NCBI RefSeq assembly: GCF_026341125.1
Contig: NZ_JAPEOR010000001.1
Coordinates: forward strand, 3,286,001 to 3,350,000
From: Streptomyces sp. NBC_01142
GTDB lineage: Bacteria; Actinomycetota; Actinomycetes; Streptomycetales; Streptomycetaceae
DNA: 64,000 nucleotides
Reading direction: 5' to 3'
The position numbers were made by a program, and so were the translations under genes. How positions within the stretch are numbered: the first letter of the stretch is position 1; each line of letters opens with the position of its first letter. Below are positions 38,837 through 47,194 of the stretch, in pieces. Below the pieces are notes generated by a model. That model was not told where the DNA came from. It saw nothing but the letters and a program-made list of their open reading frames with translations, and did not search any database.

Positions 38837-39349
38837 TCACACGTCGGCGTTGCGCTCGCGCCACACCCGGCTCTCCGCGTAGTGGTTGTCGTACTGCTCC
38901 GAGGAGTCCTTGATGTCCTGGACGGTCGCCTCGCCGTCGTGCACCCGGCCGAGCAGTCGGTAGTAGTCGAATCGGTCCATGCCCGGGGTGAAGCCGACAA
39001 GCACCTCGGCGGTGGAGTCGAGGGCGGGGGCGAAGGCGTGCGGGGTGTGCGGCGGCACGGCGAGGAAGTCGCCCTTCGTCAGGGTCAGGACCTCCTCGCC
39101 GACCAGCACCTGGAGCGATCCGTCGAGGACGAAGAAGAACTCCGTGGCACGGGTGTGGAAGTGCACCGGAGCCCCGGCTGCTCCTTTCTCGAAGCGCGCG
39201 CTGTTGACCGTGAGCGCTCCGCCCGTGGTGTCCGAGTCGGCGAGGAGGGTGATCAGGCTGCCGGGGGCGTCGGACAGCCGCTCGGCGGTGGCGGCCCGGG
39301 TGAGAAGCGGCTGGTGGGGGCGGTTCTGGGAGTTCTTCGTCTCGTTCAT
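38837..39349 (-). CDS. Cupin-domain protein (quercetinase-like)
   Basis: The 170-residue protein is a single cupin. Metal-binding motif 1 is PVHFHTRATEFFFVLDGSLQV (His-x-His, Glu, spaced as in cupins), and motif 2 is centred on AVPPHTPHAF. Mononuclear cupins of this type include quercetin 2,3-dioxygenases and other small-molecule oxygenases or sensors. The start at ATG 39349 is chosen over a longer frame with no family similarity. The substrate is unknown. Confidence 0.88.
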   Translation of the reverse strand: MNETKNSQNRPHQPLLTRAATAERLSDAPGSLITLLADSDTTGGALTVNSARFEKGAAGAPVHFHTRATEFFFVLDGSLQVLVGEEVLTLTKGDFLAVPPHTPHAFAPALDSTAEVLVGFTPGMDRFDYYRLLGRVHDGEATVQDIKDSSEQYDNHYAESRVWRERNADV

Positions 39350-39415
39350 GACACCAAAATTACGCCGCCAGGTGACCGGATGCATGGTGCATTTGGCCGC
39401 CATAATCTCGGGTCA

Positions 39416-39526
39416 ATTCTGCTCGACGAAGCCGCAGAGGCGCCGACCGTCACGGCGGGCTGCACGTTCACGGGCGGCCGGTGGTTCTCGTACTACGACG
39501 AGCAGTACGTCACCGACAGCGGGAGC
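39416..39526 (+). pseudogene. N-terminal-half fragment of an HNH (DUF1524/GmrSD C-terminal type) endonuclease gene
   Basis: The plus strand reads ILLDEAAEAPTVTAGC followed by TFTGGRWFSYYDEQYVTDSGS, which matches the region just before the catalytic DIDH motif in secreted Streptomyces HNH endonuclease-family proteins. It breaks off three bases before the stop codon of the response regulator gene on the other strand. The matching C-terminal half lies 3.9 kb away at 43386-43665, same strand. Confidence 0.7.
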
Positions 39527-39529
39527 AGA

Positions 39530-40204
39530 TCACCGAAGCGAGGGCGAGGTGGGTGGCGGTGTGACCAAGCCTGTTTCGTAGGCGAGGATGACGAGGTGGA
39601 CCCGGTCGCGGGCATTGAGTTTGGACAGCAGTCGTGCCACGTGTGCCTTGGCAGTGGCCACACTGATGCAGAGCCGGGCGGCGATCTCGCTGTTGGACAT
39701 GCCGCGTCCGATGAGTGTCAGTACCTCGCGCTCCCGCTCGGTGATGCCCTCGACTGGGCGTGGCCGGGGGGTGGGTTCGGGGCGGGCGGCGAACTCCTCG
39801 ATCAGACGGCGGGTGACGCTCGGCGCGATCAGGGCGTCTCCCGCGGCGACCACGCGGATCGCGGTAAGGATGTCGTCCAGATCCATGTTCTTGACGAGGA
39901 ATCCGCTCGCACCGGAGCGCAGAGCGGCGTAGACGTAGTCGTCGTCCTCGAAAGTGGTGAGGATCAGGACCCGTGTCGTCGTGGAGTCTGCCGTGATCAT
40001 CCGGGTGGCCTCGATGCCGTCCATTCCGGGCATGCGGATGTCCATCACCACCACGTCGGGCTGGACATCCCCCACGAGCTGGAGTGCTTCGGTGCCCGTC
40101 GCGGCCTCTCCGGCGACATGGATGTCGTGGGTGCCGGCCATCAGCACGCGCAGGCCGGAACGTACCAGCGGCTGATCGTCGGCGAGCACGACGCGGATCG
40201 TCAT
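39530..40204 (-). CDS. NarL/FixJ-family response regulator
   Basis: The 224-residue protein has a receiver domain (phospho-acceptor Asp in VVVMDIRMPGMDG, near residue 54) and a LuxR-type helix-turn-helix at the C-terminus (about 155-215; ITEREREVLTLIGRGMSNSEIAARLCIS). The start at ATG 40204 overlaps the kinase stop (ATGA), so kinase and regulator are coupled. It probably controls the divergent ABC exporter genes, as is usual for this arrangement. Confidence 0.94.
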   Translation of the reverse strand: MTIRVVLADDQPLVRSGLRVLMAGTHDIHVAGEAATGTEALQLVGDVQPDVVVMDIRMPGMDGIEATRMITADSTTTRVLILTTFEDDDYVYAALRSGASGFLVKNMDLDDILTAIRVVAAGDALIAPSVTRRLIEEFAARPEPTPRPRPVEGITEREREVLTLIGRGMSNSEIAARLCISVATAKAHVARLLSKLNARDRVHLVILAYETGLVTPPPTSPSLR

Positions 40205-41382
40205 GGAAGGTGGACTCCTTCGGGCAGGGGAAGCCGGGCCGCCACACGGAAGCCGCCTCCGGGACGCGGACCGGCCGTGAACTGGCCGCGCAGCAGGGCG
40301 ATACGCTCGCGCATTCCGACGATGCCCCAACCGGTGGCGCCGCCAGTACCCGGAACGAGGCCACTGCGACCGCCGTTCTCGACCTCGATGGACAGCTCAC
40401 CGGCCCGGTAGTCGACGGTGACGTGGCAGTCGCGGGTGCCGGCGTGGCGTGCGACGTTGGTGAGTGACTCCTGAACGATCCGGTAGGCGGCCAGCTCGAT
40501 GTCGGCGGGCAGCGGCCGTCGCTCGCCGAGCCACCGTATGTCGACACGGATACCGGCGCCTTTCGCCGATGCGGCCAGGCGGTCAAGATCGTCCAGGCCC
40601 GGTGCCGGATCACGAGGCGCGGGATTCGCCCGGGCGCCCGCATCGGCGCGGCGCAGTGCGCCCAACGTCCGCCCCAGACCGGCCAGGGTCTCCTTGCTGG
40701 TGGCCTCGATGGCGGCGAGCGCGTTGCGGGCCTCGTCCGGCTGCGTGTCGATGACCCGTCTGCCGACGCCGGCCTGGATGGCGATGACGCCGACGCTGTG
40801 CGCGATCATGTCGTGCAGTTCGCGTGCGATCCGAAGCCGTTCCGCGGTGACGGCCTGAGCCGTGGCCTGGGAATACAACGCCTTGGCGTGCTCCCGGCGC
40901 TCGCGGATCGAATCACCGGCCGTCCATGCGGCGGCGAGGGCCACCACGATGAAGGCAAGCGTCTGGACGTACGCGCCCTGCCCGGACGGAAGGTAGAGCG
41001 CGGATGCCGCTTGCGCGCCGAGCGCCACGATGGCGGCGGTGAGCGAGGTGCGGCGCGGGCGTGTGGCCGCAATGTAGCCGACAGCGAGGTCGCTGATCAG
41101 CACCTGCAGGAAACCGACCTCCAGCATGCCCCTCGCCGACGCTGTGGCGAACCCGCCGGCGAGCAGCAGCGCAAGTGCCGACAGCGGTCTGTGTCGCAGC
41201 AGACTAGCCGTCAGCACCGTGAGGACGGCCACCAACAGGAGCATCGGGGCAGAGAAGCCCTGCCGGCTGCCACGCATCGTGACGTGGAGAATCACCGGGT
41301 ACGCGATGGCTCCGCACCAGGTCAGAGCCTCCCCCGCGACGCGAGCGCCCCTCGGCAGCGGTAGATGTGGGATGGCGGGCAT
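40201..41382 (-). CDS. Two-component sensor histidine kinase (HisKA_3 type)
   Basis: The 393-residue protein has about five to six membrane helices in the first 165 residues with almost no extracytoplasmic loop, so it probably senses within the membrane. A HisKA_3 domain follows, with the phospho-His in RIARELHDMIAHSVGVIAIQAG, and then a HATPase domain (ESLTNVARHAG, GWGIVGMRERIALL). Such kinases often pair with NarL regulators and ABC exporters in drug or lipid stress responses. ATG 41382 has only a weak ribosome binding site. Confidence 0.92.
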   Translation of the reverse strand: MPAIPHLPLPRGARVAGEALTWCGAIAYPVILHVTMRGSRQGFSAPMLLLVAVLTVLTASLLRHRPLSALALLLAGGFATASARGMLEVGFLQVLISDLAVGYIAATRPRRTSLTAAIVALGAQAASALYLPSGQGAYVQTLAFIVVALAAAWTAGDSIRERREHAKALYSQATAQAVTAERLRIARELHDMIAHSVGVIAIQAGVGRRVIDTQPDEARNALAAIEATSKETLAGLGRTLGALRRADAGARANPAPRDPAPGLDDLDRLAASAKGAGIRVDIRWLGERRPLPADIELAAYRIVQESLTNVARHAGTRDCHVTVDYRAGELSIEVENGGRSGLVPGTGGATGWGIVGMRERIALLRGQFTAGPRPGGGFRVAARLPLPEGVHLP

Positions 41383-41514
41383 GCCCTGATCGTAGATGTC
41401 GTACTCCCTGGCGGGTATTGGCCCGCGGGCGTACGCCCACGGGCCACCGGAGAGCACGGGACTGTGGCCGACGGCCCGATGCCCCGCGGGCCGGCCCGCG
41501 GCACCGTTGGCCGG

Positions 41515-42435
41515 GTGATCGAAGTCAACGAACTGACCAAGCGATACGGAAAGACCACGGCCGTGAGCGGTCTGACCTTCACCGTCCGACCCGGCCACGT
41601 GACCGGGTTCCTCGGCCCGAACGGCGCCGGCAAGAGCACCACCCTGCGGATGCTCCTCGGCTTGAACCAGCCCACCAGCGGTACCGCCACCATCGACGGT
41701 CTCCCTTTCCGGGCCCGCCCGCGCGGGCTCCGCCACGTCGGCGCGCTCCTCGACGCCCACGACGTACACGGAGGCCGGACCGCTGTGGGGTACCTGTCGG
41801 CCCTGGCCCGCAGTAACGGCATTCCGCGGCGCCGGGCGGACGAGGTCCTGCGCGAGGTGGGGCTGGACGGTGCGGCCCGCCGCCGTATCGGCGGGTTCTC
41901 CCTCGGTATGAAGCAGCGGCTCGGCATCGCCGGCGCACTGCTCGGCGACCCACCCGTGCTGCTGTTCGACGAGCCGATCAACGGCCTGGACCCGGAGGGG
42001 GTGCTGTGGGTACGCGGCCTGTTCCGGCGGCTGGCCGCCGAGGGACGCACCGTGTTCGTCTCCAGCCATCTGATGAGCGAGATGGAGCAGACGGCCGAGC
42101 ACCTCATCGTCATCGGCAGGGGCGAGTTGATCGCCGCGGAGAGCGTGACGGAGTTCGCGGCCCGCGGCGCCCGTCTGAGCGTCTCCGTGCGCACCCCGGA
42201 CCCCGCTGCGCTTACGGCGGTGCTGGCCGCCGAGGGCGCCTCGGTTCACTCCGACGGCCCGGAAGGAGCGAAGGAGCTCAAGGTGACTGGCCTGAGCGCG
42301 GACCGCGTCGGCGAACTCGCCCTCCAGCACCGCGTCGTGCTGCAGGAACTGGCCACGCGTACCTCCTCTCTGGAGGAGGCCTTCATGGAACTCACCGCCG
42401 ACAGCGTCGAATACCCCGCAGGAGAACCCCAATGA
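41515..42435 (+). CDS. ABC exporter ATP-binding protein
   Basis: The 306-residue protein has an N-terminal ABC ATPase domain: Walker A GPNGAGKST, signature FSLGMKQR, Walker B VLLFDEPINGLDPEG, and switch His in VSSHLMSEM. A C-terminal extension of about 90 residues is typical of DrrA/CcmA-like exporters. The GTG at 41515 gives the canonical VIEVNELTKRYG start; an ATG a few codons upstream is possible and neither has a strong ribosome binding site. It is coupled to the permease gene by a four-base overlap and is divergent from the two-component genes. Confidence 0.93.
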   Translation: MIEVNELTKRYGKTTAVSGLTFTVRPGHVTGFLGPNGAGKSTTLRMLLGLNQPTSGTATIDGLPFRARPRGLRHVGALLDAHDVHGGRTAVGYLSALARSNGIPRRRADEVLREVGLDGAARRRIGGFSLGMKQRLGIAGALLGDPPVLLFDEPINGLDPEGVLWVRGLFRRLAAEGRTVFVSSHLMSEMEQTAEHLIVIGRGELIAAESVTEFAARGARLSVSVRTPDPAALTAVLAAEGASVHSDGPEGAKELKVTGLSADRVGELALQHRVVLQELATRTSSLEEAFMELTADSVEYPAGEPQ

Positions 42436-43286
42436 CCCCGATCCACTCGGCGCCCACGCAGACGGCGGCCGCATCCACCGCCGCACGCGCCCGCTTCCGC
42501 GACCTCCTCGCCGCCGAATGGATCAAGCTGTGGTCGCTGCGCTCCACACCCTGGGCCTTCGGGATCAGCGCGTTGGCCATCATCGGCATCAACGTGAACG
42601 CCGCCATCGCCGACTACAACAACTATCCGAACTATCCCCAAGGCACCAAGGACCTCTTCGTGCCGATCTGGGCGATGCGGGACGCCTTCACCGTCGGCGC
42701 CGGCATGGTCCTCATGCTTGCCGCCGGCAGTATCGGGGCACTCACGCTCGTCAGCGAGTACAGCACCGGACAGATCCGTACGACCTTCGCTGCCGTCCCC
42801 GCTCGCCGCTCGGTGGTGGCAGCCAAGCTGGCCGTCGTGACAGCGATCATGCTCGTCTACGGTGCATTCGTCGCGGCCGCCTCTTTCGGCGTGACGCAGG
42901 CCATCCTGTCCGGGCGGCACATCGGTCTCCCGCTCGACTACCCCGGCTCGCTCCGCGCCACTGCGGCATCCGCCCTGCTCGCGCCGGTGTGCGCGCTCAT
43001 CGGCATGGGCCTCGGCGCGCTCATCCGGCACACCGCGACCAGCATCGTCACGATCACCGGCGTCCTCCTGCTGCTGCCCTCCCTGATCAACAACCGTAAC
43101 GAATGGTCGGCGGCCCTCCTCCACGCCCTGCCCCGAGGCGCCTGGGATCGGCTGACCGAGGTGGGCGACTCGCCTGTGCCGGTGCTCTACCCAGCGACGA
43201 TCACCGAGGCGTGGATCGTGTACGCGGCCTGGCCACTCGCCGCCGCAGCGATCGCCACTGTCGTCGTCCACCGGCGTGACCTGTGA
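42432..43286 (+). CDS. ABC-2 type transporter permease
   Basis: The 284-residue membrane protein has six hydrophobic segments separated by a large loop after the first (YNNYPNYPQGTKDLFV), the usual layout of ABC-2 permeases. LVSEYSTGQIRTTFAAVPAR is the conserved cytoplasmic coupling segment. The start ATG 42432 overlaps the ATPase stop. With the ATPase it forms an exporter for an unknown hydrophobic compound, probably regulated by the divergent two-component system. Confidence 0.92.
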   Translation: MTPIHSAPTQTAAASTAARARFRDLLAAEWIKLWSLRSTPWAFGISALAIIGINVNAAIADYNNYPNYPQGTKDLFVPIWAMRDAFTVGAGMVLMLAAGSIGALTLVSEYSTGQIRTTFAAVPARRSVVAAKLAVVTAIMLVYGAFVAAASFGVTQAILSGRHIGLPLDYPGSLRATAASALLAPVCALIGMGLGALIRHTATSIVTITGVLLLLPSLINNRNEWSAALLHALPRGAWDRLTEVGDSPVPVLYPATITEAWIVYAAWPLAAAAIATVVVHRRDL

Positions 43287-43385
43287 ACACACCGGTGGCT
43301 GCCGCCAGCCGCCCTGCCCCGTGTAAACGCGCGTCTGCCCGTGAGGCAGCCGGGCCCGACGGACGGGGAATCCCGCACCACCGGA

Positions 43386-43665
43386 ATGACGCTCCCCGCC
43401 GACTGGAGCCTCGGGTCTGGACTGCGGCCCGCCGCGAGGCCTACGCGAACGATCAGGATGCCGCCACGTCTCTGGCCGCGGTCAGCGCCCGCGCGCCGGC
43501 CGGACCAAGGCCGACAAGGACCCGGGTGAGTGGCTGCCGACAGCCGCGAGCCGGCACTGCCGATACGTCTCCGAGCGGGTCACCACCAAACTCCGCTGGG
43601 GCCTGACCGCCGACAAGGCCGAGGCCGGGGCCGAGGCGCTGAAGGTCTTCGCCGACGGCCCCTGC
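43386..43665 (+). pseudogene. C-terminal-half fragment of an HNH (DUF1524/GmrSD C-terminal type) endonuclease gene
   Basis: Three consecutive plus-strand pieces in three frames match the part of Streptomyces HNH endonuclease-family proteins after the DIDH motif: MTLPADWSLGS (from 43386), VWTAARREAYANDQDAATSL, and TKADKDPGEWLPTAASRHC continuing to KLRWGLTADKAEA and ending near GPC. Two frameshifts show long decay. Together with 39416-39526 it makes up one gene, now separated by the two-component/ABC module. The rest of 43287-43820 shows no other feature. Confidence 0.7.
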
Positions 43666-43820
43666 GAAGAGGGTCATCATCTTCACCCCTGCTGCGTAGG
43701 GACGAACGGGGCCGCGGTCACGACCGGTGATCACGCGTCGGCGCGCCTGCTCCGCCTGCCCCTTTCCCCGCGCTTGACCTCAGCGTGCGACCCACTCGAG
43801 TCGGACGGAGGATGAAGCCG

Positions 43821-44603
43821 ATGAGCGAAGCGGTGGTAACCAAGGGAGATACCCAGCCAGGCGCGCACGATGCCCTGGTCGTGCTGAAGGACGTCAACAA
43901 GCACTTCGGCGCGCTGCATGTGCTCCAGGACATCGACCTGACCATCGTCCGTGGCGAGGTCGTGGTTGTCATCGGCCCGTCCGGGTCCGGGAAGTCCACA
44001 CTGTGCCGGGCCATCAATCGTCTGGAGACCATCGACTCGGGCGAGATCGCCATCGACGGCAAGGCGCTGCCCGCCGAGGGCCGCGAGCTGGCCGCACTGC
44101 GGGCCGATGTGGGCATGGTCTTCCAGTCCTTCAACCTCTTCGCGCACAAGACGGTGCTGCAGAACGTGACGCTGGGCCAGATCAAGGTCCGTAAGAAGGA
44201 CAAGAAGGCGGCCGAGGAACGGGCGCGCTCGTTGCTCGACCGGGTGGGGGTCGCCGATCAGGCGGACAAGTACCCCGCGCAGCTTTCCGGCGGACAGCAG
44301 CAGCGCGTGGCCATCGCCAGAGCGCTCGCCATGGACCCGAAAGTCATGCTCTTCGACGAGCCGACCTCGGCCCTCGACCCCGAGATGATCAACGAGGTAC
44401 TGGAGGTCATGCAGCAGCTCGCCCGCGACGGAATGACCATGGCCGTCGTCACCCACGAGATGGGATTCGCCCGTTCGGCCGCCAACCGTGTGGTGTTCAT
44501 GGCGGACGGCAGGATCGTGGAGGAGACGACGCCCGACCAGTTCTTCAGCAACCCGCGCAGCGACCGCGCCAGGGACTTCCTCTCGAAGATCCTTCGCCAC
44601 TGA
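43821..44603 (+). CDS. gluA: Glutamate-type ABC transporter ATP-binding protein
   Basis: The 260-residue protein has Walker [11 protein letters not shown]-loop [12 protein letters not shown], signature LSGGQQQR, Walker [13 protein letters not shown] and switch His THEMGF. It is the first gene of an A-B-C-D set in the order of the actinobacterial glutamate importer gluABCD. ATG 43821 has GGAGG nine bases upstream, whereas ATG 43812 would abut it. The tail [20 protein letters not shown] is typical of the family. Confidence 0.92.
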
Positions 44604-44674
44604 CCGGGACCTGCGGGAATCACATCCCGCTCCGCAGATCGCCCACCACACGTCAATCCCTAGGGATGATCACC

Positions 44675-45514
44675 ATGAAGCTTCGCAAGGTCACCGCCGC
44701 GGCCGCCGCTGCGTTCGCGCTGTCCCTGACCGCCACGGCCTGCGGCTCCGACGACGGCAACGGCAGCGGTTCGGGCAGTGGCGACGACAAGATCACCGTC
44801 GGCATCAAGTTCGACCAGCCGGGCATCGGCCTGAAGACCCCGGACGGCAAGTACACCGGCTTCGACGTCGACGTGGCGACCTATGTCGCCAGACAGCTCG
44901 GCTACAAGCCGGGCGACATCGAGTGGAAGGAAGCCAAGAGCGCCGACCGCGAGACGCTGCTCCAGCGCGGCGATGTCGACTTCATCGCGGCCTCCTACTC
45001 GATCAACGACGAGCGCCAGAAGAAGGTCGACTTCGCCGGTCCTTATCTCCTGGCGCACCAGGACGTCCTGGTCCGTTCGGACGACGACTCCATCACCAAG
45101 CCCGCGGACCTGAACAACAAGAGGCTCTGCTCGGTCACCGGGTCCACTTCCGCGCAGAACGTCAAGACGAAGCTCGCGCCGCAGGCTGAGCTGCAGGAGT
45201 ACGGCGGCTACTCCGAGTGCCTCACCGGCCTGGAGAACAAGGCTGTCGACGCCCTGACCACCGATGACTCGATCCTCGCCGGCTATGCCGCGCAGGATCA
45301 GTTCAAGGGCAAGTTCAAGCTGGGTGGCTTCAAGATGAGCAACGAGAACTACGGCATCGGAGTCCAGAAGGGCAGCGAACTCAAGGCCAAGATCAACACT
45401 GCCCTGGAGAAGATGGTCTCCGACGGCACGTGGGACGCCTATGTGAAGAAGAACTTCGGCCCGGCCGATTACAAGAACGAGCCCGCCCCGAAGATCGGCG
45501 TCGTCGTCAGCTGA
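44675..45514 (+). CDS. gluB: Glutamate-type ABC transporter substrate-binding lipoprotein
   Basis: The 279-residue protein has a lipoprotein signal peptide with the Cys in LTATACGSDD, a Gly/Ser-rich linker and a family 3 binding domain. GFDVDVATYVARQLGY (about residues 65-80) and ETLLQRGDVDFIAASYSIN form the amino acid cleft. ATG 44675 gives a normal signal peptide; ATG 44666 is three codons earlier. It lies 71 bases after the ATPase gene in the same transcription unit. Confidence 0.92.
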   Translation: MKLRKVTAAAAAAFALSLTATACGSDDGNGSGSGSGDDKITVGIKFDQPGIGLKTPDGKYTGFDVDVATYVARQLGYKPGDIEWKEAKSADRETLLQRGDVDFIAASYSINDERQKKVDFAGPYLLAHQDVLVRSDDDSITKPADLNNKRLCSVTGSTSAQNVKTKLAPQAELQEYGGYSECLTGLENKAVDALTTDDSILAGYAAQDQFKGKFKLGGFKMSNENYGIGVQKGSELKAKINTALEKMVSDGTWDAYVKKNFGPADYKNEPAPKIGVVVS

Positions 45515-45590
45515 AGCAGGTTGCCGACCGGCGCGCCGCCCACAGGTGCGGCGCGCCACGCCGTCCACGCACGCGGAAATGTGGGTGACC

Positions 45591-46256
45591 GTGTTCGACT
45601 TTCTCGAGGGTTATGACCTGTTGGGGGCCTTCTGGGCGACGGTGCAGCTCACCTTCTATTCCGCCATCGGCTCCCTGGTCTGGGGAACGCTCCTTGCTGC
45701 CATGCGGGTCAGCCCCGTGCCCCTCATGCGAGGCTTCGGCACCGTCTATATCAACGTGGTGCGGAACATCCCGCTCACGGTGATCATTGTGTTCACCTCG
45801 CTGGGCCTCTTCCAGACACTCGGTGTCAACCTCGGCGCGACCGCCTTCGAGAGCATTAACTTCAGGCTCGCCGTGCTCGGCATGAGCGCCTATACCGCCG
45901 CGTTCGTGTGCGAAGCGCTGCGGTCCGGCATCAACACGGTGCCCATCGGCCAGACGGAGGCTGCGCGCGCCATCGGCTTGAGCTTCCCCCAGGTGCTGTG
46001 GCTCATCGTCCTCCCGCAGGCCTTCCGCTCTGTGGTGGGTCCGCTGGCGAACGTACTGATCGCACTGACCAAGAACACCACAGTGGCGGCCGCGATCGGT
46101 GTCGCGGAGGCGGCGCTGCTGATGCGGGAAATGATCGAGAACGAGGCTCAGCTCATTCTCATCTCCGCCATCTTCGCGGTCGGATTCATCTGCCTCACCC
46201 TCCCGACCGGACTGTTCCTCGGCTGGGTCAGCAAGAAGGTGGCGGTGAAGCGGTGA
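45591..46256 (+). CDS. gluC: Glutamate-type ABC transporter permease C
   Basis: The 221-residue HisMQ-type permease has about five membrane helices and the EAA-loop stretch TEAARAIGLSFPQVLWLIVLPQAFR. The start is ambiguous: GTG 45591 gives a VFDFLEGYDLL N-terminus typical of the family, while ATG 45579 adds four residues. It overlaps the next permease gene by four bases and should form a heterodimer with it. Confidence 0.9.
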   Translation: MFDFLEGYDLLGAFWATVQLTFYSAIGSLVWGTLLAAMRVSPVPLMRGFGTVYINVVRNIPLTVIIVFTSLGLFQTLGVNLGATAFESINFRLAVLGMSAYTAAFVCEALRSGINTVPIGQTEAARAIGLSFPQVLWLIVLPQAFRSVVGPLANVLIALTKNTTVAAAIGVAEAALLMREMIENEAQLILISAIFAVGFICLTLPTGLFLGWVSKKVAVKR

Positions 46257-47194
46257 CCTCCGTCCTCTACGACGCCCCCGGGCCGCGCGCCAAGCGGCGC
46301 AACGTCCTGTTCACGGTGGTGTTCCTGGTCGCCCTCGCGGCGCTGATCTGGTGGGTGGTCCAGAGCCTCGCCGAAAAGAATCAACTTGAGTGGGACAAGT
46401 GGAAGCCGTTCGTCACGGACCCCCGCACCTGGACCACGTACATCCTGCCGGGGCTTGAGAACACGCTCATCGGCGCCGCTCTCGCCATGGCCATCGCGCT
46501 GCCGCTCGGTGCGCTCTTCGGTATCGCCCGGCTCTCCGACCACCGGTGGGTGCGGGGCGCGGCCGGCACGGTCGTGGAGTTCTTCCGCGCGATCCCGGTA
46601 CTGATCCTGATGCTCTTCGCCAACGCGGCCTACTCCGAGTTCACCGACGTCAGTCCGGACAACCGGCCGCTGTACGCCGTGGTCACCGGTCTCGTCCTCT
46701 ACAACGCCTCGGTGCTCGCCGAGGTGGTGCGGGCCGGAATCCTGTCCCTGCCCGCCGGCCAGACCGACGCGGCGAAGGCGATCGGCATGCGCAAAGGCCA
46801 GACGATGCGCCTCGTGCTGCTGCCGCAGTCCGTCACCGCGATGCTGCCGGCGATCGTCAGCCAGCTGGTCGTCATCGTGAAGGACACCGCACTCGGGGGC
46901 GCGATGCTCGGCTTCTCCGAACTGCTGGCATCGGTACGCCCTATGAGCGCGAACTACGGGGCGAACACCATCGCCAGCTTCACCGTCGTCGCCGTGGTCT
47001 TCGTCGTGCTGAACTTCGCGCTCACCACCTTCGCGAGCTGGCTGGAGGGCAGGCTGCGGCGAGGCAAGAAGTCCACGGGTGCGGTGGTCGGCGTCGACGC
47101 GGTCGCGGAGCTCGCGACGCCGGGTGAGCACTTCCTCCCGGGCGGGCCCGGCGGCTCGGCGGGACCGACGAGGCGAAGTGACGATACGAGATAA
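46253..47194 (+). CDS. gluD: Glutamate-type ABC transporter permease D
   Basis: The 313-residue protein starts at GTG 46253, overlapping the stop of the previous permease. It has an N-terminal cytoplasmic segment, about five to six membrane helices and the EAA-loop motif TDAAKAIGMRKGQTMRLVLLPQSV. An extra basic and Gly-rich tail of about 60 residues follows the last helix. It completes the gluABCD set. Confidence 0.92.
   Translation: MTSVLYDAPGPRAKRRNVLFTVVFLVALAALIWWVVQSLAEKNQLEWDKWKPFVTDPRTWTTYILPGLENTLIGAALAMAIALPLGALFGIARLSDHRWVRGAAGTVVEFFRAIPVLILMLFANAAYSEFTDVSPDNRPLYAVVTGLVLYNASVLAEVVRAGILSLPAGQTDAAKAIGMRKGQTMRLVLLPQSVTAMLPAIVSQLVVIVKDTALGGAMLGFSELLASVRPMSANYGANTIASFTVVAVVFVVLNFALTTFASWLEGRLRRGKKSTGAVVGVDAVAELATPGEHFLPGGPGGSAGPTRRSDDTR

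Follow-up and report, generated by a model that had tools for sequence, protein, structure and literature searches.

How a complete regulator and exporter module came to lie within a broken nuclease gene is the question raised by this locus of Streptomyces sp. NBC_01142, part of the window, the whole stretch of 64,000 nucleotides analysed here. Comparison of the window with L004, an intact 241-codon HNH paralogue from the same genome, revealed that 39416–39526 and 43405–43699 are collinear parts of one secreted HNH (GmrSD_C) nuclease gene (Table 1). The left piece aligns with L004 1432–1506 at 75% identity and the right piece with L004 1561–1817 at 73%; the latter corresponds to residue 147 onwards of L004 and ends on a native-like stop at 43697–43699. 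An earlier note on this DNA had taken the two fragments for one broken gene, and their shared strand, right order, lack of overlap and collinearity with L004 bear this out. Its estimate that only a few codons were lost proved too low, as the gap from the left piece to the junction codon takes in approximately 16 codons (131–146 of L004) and approximately 94 N-terminal codons are also missing, the DNA upstream being the upstream side of a cupin gene. Likewise, HNH sequence is present in the right segment that the note placed at 43386–43665, but the remnant itself begins and ends later, the start of that segment belongs to a different feature described below, and three frame changes were read instead of two further frameshifts. 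Four further GmrSD_C genes are located elsewhere in the genome.

Table 1. Features of the interrupted HNH locus (window coordinates).
Feature	Position	Strand	Remarks
Left HNH (GmrSD_C) remnant	39416..39526	+	Approximately residues 95–130 of 241; translation ILLDEAAEAPTVTAGCTFTGGRWFSYYDEQYVTDSGS; E 6.5e-17 against a profile built from intact homologues
26 bp between HNH remnant and module	39527..39552		Minus strand supplies most of the PTSPSLR tail and the response regulator stop
Response regulator, NarL/LuxR type	39530..40204	-	PF00072, PF00196; last native codon and stop replaced
Sensor histidine kinase	40201..41382	-	Pfam domains HisKA_3, HATPase_c, DUF7134
ABC exporter ATP-binding subunit	41515..42435	+	PF00005
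ABC-2 type permease	42432..43286	+	PF12679
Spacer, end of module homology to element right end	43291..43366		76 bp; 92% homology to G225 stops at 43290
Right end of HNH-targeting Tn554-like transposon	43367..43404	+	32/40 to consensus when the following two bases are included
Right HNH remnant	43405..43699	+	Gly of EAWDS/GAS to stop; three frame changes; E 2e-22 against the C-terminal half of the intact-homologue profile

The four genes between the pieces, encoding a HisKA_3 kinase, a LuxR-type regulator, an ABC ATPase and an ABC-2 permease, are adjacent and intact, as coordinates and domains confirmed for the earlier reading, and constitute a NarL-type two-component/ABC-2 exporter module. Judging by their adjacency and by general knowledge of such modules, the kinase/regulator pair probably controls the exporter. 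LnrJK-LnrLMN of Bacillus subtilis likewise joins a NarL-family two-component system to an ABC-2 exporter; unlike that system, the module here has one permease gene, not two. A paralogous regulator/kinase/ABC module (G000:C1:3540443-3543922, L159) is found approximately 211 kb from the window module, with stretches that are 71–75% identical.

The left join coincides exactly with a cut in the response regulator gene, which has lost its last codon and stop there. Its relatives in G225, G105, G185 and G092 end in GLVTPPR followed by the stop; the homology of the window to module relatives, which starts at 39553, breaks off within this ending, and the reading frame continues into the novel tail PTSPSLR and a stop. 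With the left HNH piece ending at 39526 and the regulator at 39530, the break lies three bases from the regulator stop, just as had been noted before. An alignment of 39524–39552 with the HNH left half or the element left end is suggestive but not significant: its score was reached by 105 of 2000 shuffled sequences and by 136 of the 1278 other 29-mers in the window.

Inspection of the right join disclosed the end of a mobile element. Positions 43367–43406 match the right-end consensus at 32 of 40 bases, while the next best match in the 64 kb, on both strands, reaches 24 of 40. Directly behind this sequence the HNH gene resumes, between the Ser and Gly codons of EAWDS/GAS. Several HNH homologues share both this point of interruption and the sequence ahead of their right half, and at least 22 of the matches listed besides the window extend into the right-end sequence (query start 10 or lower). 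Preceded by a Ser codon (TCN or AGC), the elements start with AAGTAGGCGGAGTTG.. and finish with ..GGAATACCGCAC....CGAATGACGCTCCCCGCCAGCT before GGN GCN, i.e., between Ser and Gly; no target-site duplication was seen by eye at the joins read. The left end is absent from the window. The previous statement that neither transposase nor direct repeats are visible thus stands as regards a recombinase gene, since the HNH pieces enclose only the four module genes, and as regards a duplication, but it overlooked the right end of the element.

A 24-base right-end pattern, with three mismatches or fewer, occurred at 49 places in 33 of the 392 genomes of the genus, window included, and its reversed form at 12. 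The window right end has three mismatches in this 24-base core, as chance matches may have, though not at this codon. Across the loci examined, 44 of 48 right ends were followed within 290 bases by an HNH right half at E 0.01 or better, with marginal values near 0.003 for the second sites in G285 and G261, compared to 2 of 48 control stretches. These 48 include the window and two identical G370 copies, and 28 of them are the window or loci selected by a match to HNH, recombinase or right end plus HNH. For right ends picked from the pattern list, the proportion was 17/20, two of the 20 being also in the HNH list. The right ends in G055, G000:C3 and G004 had no HNH profile match despite HNH-like first codons, and behind one in G285 lies unrelated, non-HNH sequence. 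Similarly, 11 of 12 left-end matches follow an HNH left half, most of the loci having been selected by a match to HNH, right end or recombinase; the remaining one, from Amycolatopsis, has two mismatches. The right-end and left-end counts, from loci partly selected for HNH or recombinase matches, agree on one fixed insertion codon. A search of plasmids with the right end plus HNH start returned 124 records, many matching the HNH part only, and is not usable as a count. The right-end match in G000:C3 (1746652-1746675, L284; three mismatches) lies in the window's own genome and is perhaps another, more decayed remnant.

Complete elements at this codon elsewhere carry, in this order, a tyrosine recombinase (integrase), an HTH protein and a long protein. 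Both ends are present in ten elements, which span 462–8761 bp. Five of these retain all three genes (one with a frameshifted integrase), four hold pieces only and one has no detectable piece; because the block is wholly or partly lost in half of the bounded elements, its absence from the window is not unusual, and for lack of recombinase genes we regard the window copy as a remnant and not a working member. The recombinase of the G151 element (374 aa, Phage_integrase E 8.3e-15) is of typical size (about 350 aa), and among its relatives of solved structure are XerA, a XerC-like protein and IntI4; this gene is missing from the window copy. It is accompanied by a long tyrosine recombinase, as in the Tn554-related class discussed below, where this second protein measures 611–828 aa and has an N-terminal extension; the class also has a TnpC-like third protein, and here a gene for a 111-aa HTH_26 protein separates the two recombinase genes. 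In the 659-aa long protein of G151, a tyrosine-recombinase fold was recognised in residues 367–654 by a fold comparison that covers residues from about 367 on, while a profile comparison between it and the short recombinase detected no relationship. Conserved cysteine pairs are numerous in the long protein. Elsewhere in the window's genome, G000:C6:57334-60382 encodes relatives of this recombinase-like protein (43% and 39%).

Cargo is present in several elements, where non-recombinase genes lie ahead of the right end; G178 and G215 have a different kinase/regulator pair just before it (Pfam on G178 only). Three of the ten bounded elements have an HNH gene of their own. At L291, L292 and L233, a whole HNH gene lies inside an element that split an HNH gene; in the two plasmid elements of this list, it comes immediately after the long recombinase and is visibly of a different subtype from the split gene. 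An intron or intein at the HNH codon was discarded as an explanation, as the interruptions hold recombinase genes and varied other genes. In the plasmid records listed, the long protein with 55–71% identity over nearly its full length lies between HNH halves in 6 of 6 cases, and the diverged plasmid long proteins checked (32–33%) in 0 of 3. Diverged cousins at L322 and L323 (long protein about 33%) are directly behind a PhlD gene on plasmids of S. anulatus and S. cyaneofuscatus, which suggests another target gene. Since the few diverged cousins checked, two of them behind PhlD, are outside HNH genes, target choice may follow the recombinase clade.

Tn554 of Staphylococcus aureus inserts at att554 in radC and carries resistance genes as cargo. 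The target here is an HNH gene instead; the likeness to Tn554 lies in a three-gene transposition block and one preferred site. A fixed insertion site is also ascribed to Tn554 in the account by Van Houdt et al. (2012, PMC3414803) of Tn554-related transposons in actinobacteria. As in the class outlined there, a typical-size tyrosine recombinase adjoins an abnormally long one on the same strand, with a small third gene, on actinobacterial plasmids and chromosomes. The complete elements described here belong to this published class. They differ from the other transposons in their target, an HNH/GmrSD_C nuclease gene, in the order integrase, HTH, long protein, in the conserved cysteine pairs of the long protein, and in the cargo that several of them carry, including some HNH genes. 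In the literature searched, mainly titles and the starts of abstracts, HNH genes were not reported as a Tn554-like landing site; within that literature, the class is known, and there appears to be no description of its target gene, the fixed codon or elements that bear an HNH gene.

Comparison of the module DNA with the genus gave matches in all 326 genomes scored (of 392; 66 without a score), many of them weak and partial. The best long matches (G225, G105, G185, G092, G281) cover almost exactly the four genes. G225 has the closest copy seen by DNA, at 92% identity over 39553–43290, with other flanks; apart from the module, the window has nothing in common with the 19.5 kb around that copy, which has neither an element right end nor an HNH match beside it. 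By comparison, a 17-kb core stretch matched one G225 contig at 63–87% identity among the ten matches listed, eight of them at 74–87%. Protein search identified closer kinases in NPDC041003 (88%) and NBC_01233 (86%). Because a copy at 92% lies elsewhere with other flanks, against 63–87% for the core matches listed, the module is foreign to the HNH gene and, on these sequence comparisons, an exchangeable unit that is shared horizontally. Permease, right end and HNH gene were never joined among the matches listed from 370 genomes of the family (two candidates scored per genome), and no intact element carrying the four-gene module was found in the genomes sampled.

Searches of relatives for the same chromosomal place found no uninterrupted HNH gene there among the matches listed. 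The window arrangement was absent from the matches listed for the cupin gene plus left piece in the 392 genus genomes, where the best cupin outside the own genome reached 84%, from those listed when 370 genomes of the family were searched with permease plus right piece, and from named genomes searched with the cupin protein (best 80 of 207 relatives). At three loci of the S. niveus clade, the cupin gene lies near a gluABCD operon in different order and orientation, and no blastn match to the HNH pieces was obtained. The window cupin (38837–39403) is 79–82% identical to that of the clade as protein, and the window gluABCD (43785–47194) 76–77% as DNA; the glu operon is also 86% identical to one in G006, which has other neighbours.

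We consider it likely that an HNH-targeting Tn554-like transposon carried the module as cargo and then decayed. A Tn554-related tyrosine-recombinase transposon, moved by its recombinases, would have split the HNH gene between the Ser and Gly codons, with the two-component/ABC-2 exporter module as cargo adjoining the right end. One deletion could then have taken the left end, any recombinase genes, the approximately 16 HNH codons and the last regulator codon and stop, and a separate loss the 5' portion of the nuclease gene. The module would have stayed intact, its regulator now ending on a stop read from DNA beyond the join. Confidence stops short of certainty because the sampled genomes hold no complete element with this module and because 39527–39552 and 43291–43366 have no assigned origin.

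It is unlikely, though worth weighing, that a transposon with other or no cargo split the gene first and that illegitimate recombination afterwards placed the module between the HNH left half and the element's right end, in exchange for the element interior. The sharp stops of module homology at 39553 and 43290, the absence of any recognised element part on the left and the location of the closest copy seen, in G225, outside any such element are all in agreement with this sequence of events. It requires, however, an extra insertion at just this place, and the non-recombinase genes before the right end in several elements, with regulator/kinase pairs in two loci, argue against it. That the module entered an intact HNH gene directly, with no transposon involved, as the earlier note read the locus, is very improbable: the HNH halves do flank the module, no transposase gene was recognised between them, and the note was right that the module is foreign and sits inside a once-whole gene, but the element right end stands between module and right half, and that half starts at the fixed insertion codon of the family. 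We give hardly any credence to the two pieces being independent remnants of different HNH copies that flank the module by chance, for while the genome has four other copies and some loci have several such genes close together, the pieces share strand and order without overlap and the right join is common to many interrupted HNH genes.

With cargo carriage by a transposon as the preferred reading, an apparently unexplained case of a module within a gene becomes one instance of a process that recurs and can be recognised by its defined ends and target codon, which allow remnants to be found after the recombinases are lost. A target gene can thereby be named for a clade of Tn554-related transposons, and the locus hints at how sensor/exporter modules may pass from one Streptomyces to another; taken alone, it is an old remnant of modest interest. 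Tentatively, we propose a Streptomyces family of cargo-carrying Tn554-like transposons that lands at one codon of secreted HNH-nuclease genes and is dedicated to it. Some members might bring an intact HNH gene of another subtype, so that the host stays nuclease-positive and the next site is supplied, and HNH genes might serve as docking platforms that accumulate cargo (regulators, exporters, enzymes) left when recombinases decay. Several of the interrupted HNH genes, in G370, G401, G285, G114 and G334, were seen to lie near the ends of contigs the size of chromosomes, at distances of 12–46 kb; G370 has them at both ends.
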